From NCBI GenBank assembly GCA_013538715.1, contig JACAFH010000002.1, forward strand, positions 1-64,000: a stretch of 64,000 nt of DNA, written 5' to 3'. The stretch comes from Candidatus Nitrosothermus koennekei (GTDB lineage Archaea > Thermoproteota > Nitrososphaeria > Nitrososphaerales > Nitrosocaldaceae). Of this stretch, positions 22,174 through 56,755 are shown in pieces (position 1 is the first letter of the stretch; every line of letters begins with the position of its first letter). The notes beneath the pieces were generated by a model. It was not told the origin of the DNA. It saw only the letters and a program-made list of their open reading frames with translations, and searched no databases. The translations under genes and the position numbers were made by a program.

Positions 22174-22935
22174 ATGCAGACAATAAACAAAAAAGTAATA
22201 ATTACAGTGCTTGTAGCAATGGTAATACTACCTACATTTTATATAGGATATATAACAGCAGATAGTAATGGAGGACTTATAAGTTCTAGAAGATCGGCTG
22301 AATGTATACCACTAACTGCTGGTTCTGCACAACCATATAAACTTCCTTTAGGATGGAAGATAGAGACTATAATTGAAGAGGATATAGCACAAGCATACAT
22401 TGAAGATCTTCCAGATATGAACCAACAGAATATGATAGCAATAGATATGCCACAAGCATTAAAGGATCATGGAGTAAATGATGATAGTGCAGAAAGAGGC
22501 AGATTACTATATCAAACACACGAACGTTGGGAAGGTGGTGCATCAGTCTCCGTAGTTGATTTAGAAACAAGAATTGCAGCAAAGATGCTTGAAGCTGATC
22601 ATCTAGAAGCATTAGATGGATTATTATGGACGCCATGGAATACTCTAATTTTTGCTGAAGAAATGGATGAACAGAAAATAAGAGATCCAAACGTTCCAGA
22701 TGCGATAGGAGGTTTAGCGTATGAGATGGATCCAGTTAGTGGTGAGTATTGGCCATTACCACAATTAGGTGCAATGGCTCATGAAGGAATAATGATTGAT
22801 GAAAATATGAATATATATGTAGTAGACGAAGACAAGCGTGGTTCTATATACAAGTTTATACCAAATGAGAATCCAATGATAAATGGAAGGATAGGAGATG
22901 GAGATCTATACGTGTTAAGGATAATAGATGATTGA
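22174..22935 (+). pseudogene. PhoX-like (DUF839) secreted phosphatase, N-terminal part of interrupted gene
   Basis: Starting at ATG 22174 the protein has a basic tip, a membrane/signal helix (about 7-26, VIITVLVAMVILPTFYIGY), then a beta-propeller-like region. It carries the PhoX-family features MPQALKDHG, THERWEGGASVSVVD, DGLLWTPWNTLIFAEE, GLAYEMDPVSG and the DEDKRGSIYKFIP strand. An upstream in-frame TTG at 22141 is possible. The frame ends at TGA 22933-22935, inside a 66-bp insertion. PhoX enzymes are extracellular calcium-dependent phosphatases. Without the 66 bp the frame joins perfectly to 22999 onwards. Confidence 0.75.
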
Positions 22936-22998
22936 TTTTTGTAAAACTTTAAGAAGAAATAATATATCGATCTATACGTGTTAAGGATAATAGATGAT
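22903..22998 (+). repeat. 30-bp direct repeats flanking a 36-bp spacer inside a gene
   Basis: The same 30 nt occur at 22903-22932 and 22969-22998, both beginning GATCTATACGTG and ending ATAGATGAT. The 36 nt between them carry three in-frame stops (TGA, TAA, TAA). Deleting one repeat plus the spacer removes exactly 66 nt (22 codons) and restores one continuous 456-codon frame from 22174. Each copy also contains a 6-bp inverted repeat, ATCTAT/ATAGAT. Confidence 0.95.
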
Positions 22999-23610
22999 AC
23001 TGCCGCTCCAGGAGAGAGAACAGGTACAGCAGAGTGGATATTATTGAATCAGACATTAGTTAGAATAGATGCAGAGAAAGCAGCAGAAGTAGTTAATGCT
23101 ACACTTTACAATAGACCAGAAGATCTAGAATTAATAGGTAACAAACTTTATGTAGCTTTAACAGGAGCTAGTAGTCCAGGTCCAGTAGATAATAGGATTA
23201 TATCGATAGACATATCTAATCCAACTCAACCATTCGTTACAGAGTTTGTAGTTCCAGGAATCAATGTTCCTATAGAGATTGACAACGATGATGATAAATC
23301 TGATGAACAGACAGGATTTAGTAATCCAGATAATTTAGCGAAGAGAGGAAATGAGTTATGGATAGCAGAGGATAACAGTCCAAGTGATATCTGGGTTGCA
23401 AAACCAGATAGGGATGGCGATGGTTATTCTGACAAAATAACATTGTTTACATCAATGGAGGATTGTGCAGCCGAGTCAACTGGTTTACTATGGGGTATAG
23501 GAAAATACCACAATAAACTCTTCATCACACAGCAACATGCTGGTCCTATATATGAGGATGTCGAGATAGGTGCAGATAAGATATTTGTTATAAGCAGAGG
23601 ACAGAATTAA
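22978..23610 (+). pseudogene. PhoX-like (DUF839) phosphatase, C-terminal part of interrupted gene
   Basis: This frame continues the phosphatase after the second 30-bp repeat. It reads RPEDLELIGNKLYVALTGAS, IISIDISNPTQPF, a Ca-binding-like acidic stretch DNDDDKSDEQTGF, SNPDNLAKRGNELWIAEDN and a glycine-rich tail KIFVISRGQN. The RPED and PDNL strands are typical of the PhoX/DUF839 propeller. If translated alone it could start at GTG 22978 but would lack a signal peptide and half the fold. Codon use is normal and there is no further damage, so the interruption looks recent or conditional. Confidence 0.75.
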
Positions 23611-55846: not shown

Positions 55847-56755
55847 CTATCCCGCTATTATCACTTTATGGTCAATTATTTTTGAATAAGGTCTGTTAAG
55901 ATCTGGTGCGTTATCTCCATAATAACCTACTAGCAAAAGTGTAGTACCGCATACAGAACCTCGAACAAAAACAAATATAGGAGGATCAGCATCTCTTCTA
56001 TCATAATTCTTTGCGGCAAAATATAATATAGTATTGCTATTTGCTGGTATCTTGATATATGGATTAACTTCATCGTAAAGATAATCTATTGAATTCTCAG
56101 CATTCTTTACTAAGTGCCAATTTGCCTGCTGTAAGGTAGAAAATATAAATAATGATGAGCGAGAGGAGAGCCATATATTTTCATCACTATTATTAATAAA
56201 CTCTACTTTAAATGCTACTTGTTGTAGAGTTTGTACAGTATTTTTATTACTCCATTCTGTAATTCTTCTTCCTCTTTGGAATTCTGCATGCATTAGTTCT
56301 AAAACATCATTATTCTCATTGTTATTATTCTCATTGTTATTATTCTCATTGTTTACTTTATCACAGCACTTAGCAAGAAAGAGGGAACCTCTTTCACTAA
56401 CAAACTTTATTATATTATTATTTTCAACTCCTATGTCTATTAGGGCGCTTTCTCCATTCTTTAGAGTTAGATTTAATATGTTACTACGTATTAGATCATC
56501 ATCCTTTAATACAAAGTAGTATAGTAATGTTATTGTCAACGGACTCTTATTTGTAATATTAACTAGATTAGTATCAAATCTTATATCTAGATCTTCTCTG
56601 CTCTTCTCTTCAAGCCTAGTAAGCTTTATGATTTGTGAATCGTTAATTCTTTGGTTTTCTCTCTCTATAGATAGAAAATAACTTGCTACTGTAGTGAAAA
56701 TTATTGTAAGGATTATAACAGCTCCTACTACAGTTCCGCTACCTTTATTATTCAT
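55847..56755 (-). CDS. pilin-like secreted protein with an Asn/Glu repeat
   Basis: A 302-residue protein with an N-terminal hydrophobic helix (8-28, GTVVGAVIILTIIFTTVASYF) preceded by NNKGSG, like an archaeal class III signal. The body is beta-rich and probably extracellular. Residues about 135-150 consist of an Asn-rich NNENN repeat encoded by a 15-bp tandem repeat (56311-56351). It overlaps the next pilin gene by 4 nt and precedes the ATPase gene. It may be a minor pilin or pilus tip protein. Confidence 0.75.
   Translation of the reverse strand: MNNKGSGTVVGAVIILTIIFTTVASYFLSIERENQRINDSQIIKLTRLEEKSREDLDIRFDTNLVNITNKSPLTITLLYYFVLKDDDLIRSNILNLTLKNGESALIDIGVENNNIIKFVSERGSLFLAKCCDKVNNENNNNENNNNENNDVLELMHAEFQRGRRITEWSNKNTVQTLQQVAFKVEFINNSDENIWLSSRSSLFIFSTLQQANWHLVKNAENSIDYLYDEVNPYIKIPANSNTILYFAAKNYDRRDADPPIFVFVRGSVCGTTLLLVGYYGDNAPDLNRPYSKIIDHKVIIAG
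56311..56351. repeat. 15-bp tandem repeat, about 2.7 copies
   Basis: Unit TATTCTCATTGTTAT on the plus strand occurs at 56311-56325 and 56326-56340 and partly at 56341-56351. It encodes NNENN on the minus strand. Copies are exact. Unit length is a multiple of three, so copy number can vary without loss of the frame. Confidence 0.9.

Follow-up and report, generated by a model that had tools for sequence, protein, structure and literature searches.

The question raised by this locus is how a gene for a PhoX-like secreted phosphatase in Candidatus Nitrosothermus koennekei, an ammonia-oxidising archaeon from hot springs, came to be interrupted by 66 bp (30 + 36) within its coding sequence (Table 1). 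We analyzed the gene in a stretch of 64,000 nucleotides, hereafter called the window. The first-pass annotation had described two identical 30-bp copies flanking 36 bp with three in-frame stops, and we confirmed this arrangement at 22903-22998. The bases bordering the two copies are unlike on either side (A and C on the left, T and A on the right), which sets the length of the duplication at exactly 30 bp. The stops within the insert (TGA at 22933, TAA at 22942 and TAA at 22960) are predicted to truncate the phosphatase after 253 codons. Removal of one copy together with the insert gives a frame of 456 codons, in agreement with the annotation. Pfam PhoX matches were found in both halves of the gene, one at the cut-off (E-value 2.7e-5) and the other just below it (4.8e-5), and the E-value was 9.5e-15 when the halves were read as one frame with three internal stops. 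The interrupted gene is presumably non-functional, and the insertion appears to be recent, since the copies are still identical and the gene carries no further disabling change. The annotation had also noticed no counterpart of the 36 bp in the window; we found no second copy of it in the whole genome at up to three mismatches, nor any further place for the 30-mer at the same threshold.

The only close PhoX orthologue that we found is in the metagenome-assembled genome of Candidatus Nitrosocaldus sp. SKYG19 (G002). When read without the insert, the window protein is 62% identical to the SKYG19 PhoX. The comparison of orthologues had been proposed from the start, and it showed an uninterrupted gene at the site, with the insertion point crossed gap-free in the alignment with this one orthologue. 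The simplest reading of the single comparison would be that the insertion arose in the lineage of the window. The SKYG19 protein has about 130 additional C-terminal amino acids, including a membrane segment, that are missing from the window PhoX, which corrects the initial claim that the reconstructed gene has no other damage. This C-terminal domain with its membrane segment recurs on many otherwise different Nitrosocaldaceae proteins and may be a surface-anchoring module. Because the domain behaves as a module within the family, its absence from the window PhoX need not be damage.

Table 1. Features of the interrupted phoX locus (window coordinates)
Feature	Coordinates	Strand	Remarks
Interrupted PhoX-like (PF05787) secreted phosphatase gene	22174..23610	+	ATG 22174, TAA 23608-23610; from Pfam, frame and orthologue
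30-bp target duplication, copy 1	22903..22932	+	GATCTATACGTGTTAAGGATAATAGATGAT, perfect
36-bp insert, putative spacer	22933..22968	+	TGATTTTTGTAAAACTTTAAGAAGAAATAATATATC, 17% G+C
30-bp target duplication, copy 2	22969..22998	+	GATCTATACGTGTTAAGGATAATAGATGAT, perfect
Inverted repeat ATCTAT...ATAGAT near the target-site ends	22904..22929	+	From the sequence; present in copy 2 too

We propose that the best explanation, and a probable one, is an off-target integration of a CRISPR spacer into phoX by the resident type I-B adaptation machinery, a reading that was absent from the first-pass annotation. The CRISPR integrase attaches a spacer at both ends of a repeat, once on each strand, and the repeat is doubled when the gaps are filled. 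A 30-bp target duplication around a 36-bp insert is the product expected of off-target Cas1-Cas2 activity, and these two lengths point to spacer integration. According to this proposal, the type I-B Cas1-Cas2 integrase of the host, with Cas4, would have taken up a 36-bp prespacer and joined it to both strands of a 30-bp stretch of phoX instead of entering a CRISPR array at its first repeat. Fill-in of the two 30-nt gaps would then duplicate the target and leave the 36-bp spacer between two 30-bp copies, and the stops within the integrated spacer would end the phosphatase early. Cas1-Cas2 would be the presumed maker of the insertion, and the 36 bp is presumably foreign DNA.

The host genome (1.46 Mb in 34 contigs) is of the same family as Candidatus Nitrosocaldus. 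The only cas1 that we found in it sits at one end of contig C11, in a gene set consisting of Cas1b (cut by the contig end), Cas4, two copies of Cas6, Cas8b, Cas7, Cas5 and Cas3, which is classified by its gene content as type I-B. Of the presumed cognate adaptation machinery, this Cas1b fragment and Cas4 were seen in the same genome; cas2 was not seen in the host assembly, and no full array with 30-bp repeats is assembled in the host genome, although one exact copy of the 30-bp repeat is retained on the contig of the window. We compared these genes with those of the closed genome G001, most likely that of Candidatus N. cavascurensis, which has been described as having a type I-B system and arrays of 101 and 96 spacers (PMC5797428). 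The Cas4 proteins of the two genomes are 83% identical, and the G001 cas1 adjoins a 30-bp-repeat array. In the Nitrosocaldaceae arrays with the repeat GTTTGAATCGAACTATAGTAGGATTGAAA(T/G/C), each repeat is exactly 30 bp, the length of the target duplication in phoX. The 197 spacers of G001 are 35-41 bp long, a range that includes the 36 bp of the insert; the commonest lengths are 36 bp (67/197) and 37 bp (67/197). The type I-B arrays of Candidatus Nitrosocaldus (PMC5797428, PMC6563490) are built of units in which a 30-bp repeat is joined to a 36-37-bp spacer, dimensions that the phoX locus shares, and the host Cas1 fragment is 94% identical to the G001 Cas1 over 108 amino acids. The locus differs from the arrays in that the duplicated 30 bp is coding sequence and not a CRISPR repeat, that there is a single unit, and that no leader is present. 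An ordinary CRISPR array at this site was rejected as an explanation; the 30-mer occurs at a single place in the genome and is unlike the CRISPR repeat. Another array on contig C33 (L066:4705-6242) has 20 repeats of 37 bp (GTTGCAATCGAAAAAGTTCCGATAAGGGAATTGAGAG) and spacers of 37-50 bp, and the 14 kb that we examined around it contained no cas genes. Integration with the 37-bp ruler of this array would be expected to yield a duplication of 37 bp, not 30.

We searched for a protospacer of the 36 bp in the host's own genome, 150 relatives, phages, plasmids and IMG/VR and found none; the matches were at chance level, the best being 29/36. Spacers of environmental archaea mostly lack a known source, and the failed search therefore neither supports nor refutes a spacer origin. 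The target site shares 10/30 identities with the CRISPR repeat, a level that many random 30-mers reach. Its resemblance to leader plus repeat is weak (p about 0.09, with the leader taken from a relative and not from the host), and the off-target sites of a type II system have been reported to resemble the leader-repeat junction (PMC6895254). The phoX insertion is a single event, for which no statistics are possible. The missing protospacer, the lack of likeness between target and CRISPR repeat, the cut cas1, the unseen cas2 and the missing full array all weigh against certainty. The 6-bp hairpin ATCTAT/ATAGAT pointed out in the first-pass annotation is real and modest, as about 1.2% of the 30-mers in the window have such arms in comparable placement. 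If this inverted repeat matters, it may be a feature of a Cas1 target; it is of interest because stem-loop binding has been reported for Sulfolobus Cas1, and integration outside arrays has been proposed to be held back there by an accessory factor (PMC9456107).

We also scanned for exact repeats of at least 19 bp at an offset of 40-100 bp in 1.16 of the 1.46 Mb of the host genome (sampled stretches) and in 0.4 Mb of G001, and classed the matches by their pattern and sequence. No second insertion-like pair with the dimensions of the phoX insertion was found in the 1.16 Mb of host sequence. The remaining matches are either part of the C33 array or resemble repeat families of the coding or tandem kind. 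A single further pair has the 66-bp offset, with 26/30 identities near position 211155 of C18, the contig of the window; we considered it as a second event and rejected it. The gene there encodes a small protein ending in GG (MoaD/ThiS-like, judged by eye), which aligns over its full length with a match in a distant relative (G010), and we treat the pair as an ordinary coding repeat.

Several other processes could leave 66 bp in a gene, and we weighed them against spacer integration. The first-pass annotation had suggested a recent slippage or insertion scar. The idea of an insertion scar stands in kind, with its agent unnamed; slippage fails to explain the 36 bp of unrelated sequence. An insertion scar could be left by DNA repair, if a double-strand break with a stagger of about 30 nt were filled and joined with a 36-bp filler, or if template switching duplicated the 30 bp and captured the filler. 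Such repair would produce the same anatomy without a special enzyme and would need neither a protospacer nor a resemblance of the target to the CRISPR repeat. We nevertheless consider it unlikely: the exact match of both lengths to those of CRISPR repeat and spacer would then be a coincidence, the source of the filler is absent from the genome at up to three mismatches, and there is no like scar in 1.16 Mb of the genome. An error of sequencing or assembly, with the 66 bp absent from the cell, might be suspected in an assembly of 34 fragments. However, the 66-bp unit is below the common short-read length, and the 36 bp is unique in the assembly, so a mis-join would require an outside source; we judge an artefact to be very improbable.

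It is still less probable that the interruption is functional, being removed from the RNA as an archaeal bulge-helix-bulge intron or skipped by ribosomes that bypass it between the identical copies. Taking out the 66 bp restores the frame, since the length is divisible by three, which has a one-in-three chance of arising, and the sequence can be arranged as a bulge-helix-bulge with pairings of 4/4, 4/5 and 4/5. The same pairing score was reached by 18% of random copy-spacer-copy constructs; we rejected the intron on finding it above a plain null, yet not above a null that preserves the copy-spacer-copy design. The region does not fold more strongly than shuffled sequences (z -0.48), and ribosome bypassing, which the first-pass annotation had raised, gained no positive support. 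Both forms of the idea also face an orthologue without the insert, and neither intron nor bypassing explains a perfect 30-bp duplication. The annotation had further considered a reversible on/off switch operated by recombination of one 30-bp repeat with the other, which we regard as the least credible of these possibilities. Spacers are lost from CRISPR arrays by recombination between repeats, and the perfect direct repeats in phoX could likewise delete the insert at some rate and restore the frame. Such a deletion is one-way, however: the 36 bp would not be regenerated, no second copy was found from which it might be restored, and we saw no sign of a programmed switch.

Off-target spacer integration has precedents in the laboratory. 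It was observed in E. coli overexpressing Cas1-Cas2 by Nivala, Shipman and Church (2018), as cited in two later papers (PMC9456107, PMC11788318), and there is an in vitro description of it from a type II system (PMC6895254). As far as those citing papers relate it, the E. coli 'neo-CRISPR' loci resemble the phoX case in that Cas1-Cas2 was held responsible for an insert of spacer length in the chromosome, away from a CRISPR array. They differ in coming from a type I-E system overexpressed in the laboratory, whereas the phoX insertion seems to have happened naturally, in a thermophilic archaeon whose system is of type I-B, and it lies inside a gene that it breaks. With a few word combinations we found no published natural example in the open-licence literature. 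The phoX case would be a natural, gene-breaking archaeal instance of the phenomenon known from E. coli. Casposons are kilobases long and have terminal inverted repeats and target duplications of about 14-15 bp. They share with the phoX case a Cas1-family integration that duplicates the target, and differ from its 36-bp insert and 30-bp duplication in being kilobase elements with shorter duplications. These transposons, which encode a Cas1 homologue, are known in Thaumarchaeota (PMC6563490).

Whether CRISPR adaptation in nature mutates the host chromosome has so far mostly been asked with overexpressed Cas1-Cas2. The signature proposed here, a repeat-length duplication around a spacer-length insert in a gene, with a matching Cas1 present, lends itself to searches of any genome that has been sequenced. 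Such searches could measure how frequently the immune system harms its owner, and could show how new CRISPR arrays may arise. A wider proposal is that Cas1-Cas2 of thermophilic ammonia oxidisers recurrently inserts spacers into chromosomal genes and acts as a natural insertional mutagen, seeding new one-unit CRISPR-like loci whose marks can disappear through recombination between the copies; genes would thereby be silenced and now and then recovered. We hold this wider proposal to be improbable.

A few further repeats were observed in these genomes. The exact copy of the 30-bp CRISPR repeat on the window's own contig (C18:131589-131618; L023:5590-5619) is solitary, with degenerate repeat-like stretches upstream of it as judged by eye, and a comparable lone copy is present in G003 (L024, about 6238). 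The lone repeats in the host and in G003 are possibly relics of deleted arrays. One spacer of the C33 array is perfectly matched on contig C30 (L060:14484-14522), inside a small open reading frame adjoining a methylase-like gene (by eye), a possible case of self-targeting of a resident mobile element. The start of C30 (L060:1-260), at the very end of the contig, consists of tandem repeats with a 38-bp unit followed by units of about 18 bp. In the window itself, the 15-bp sequence ATTATTCTCATTGTT occurs in three perfect tandem copies at 56309-56353.
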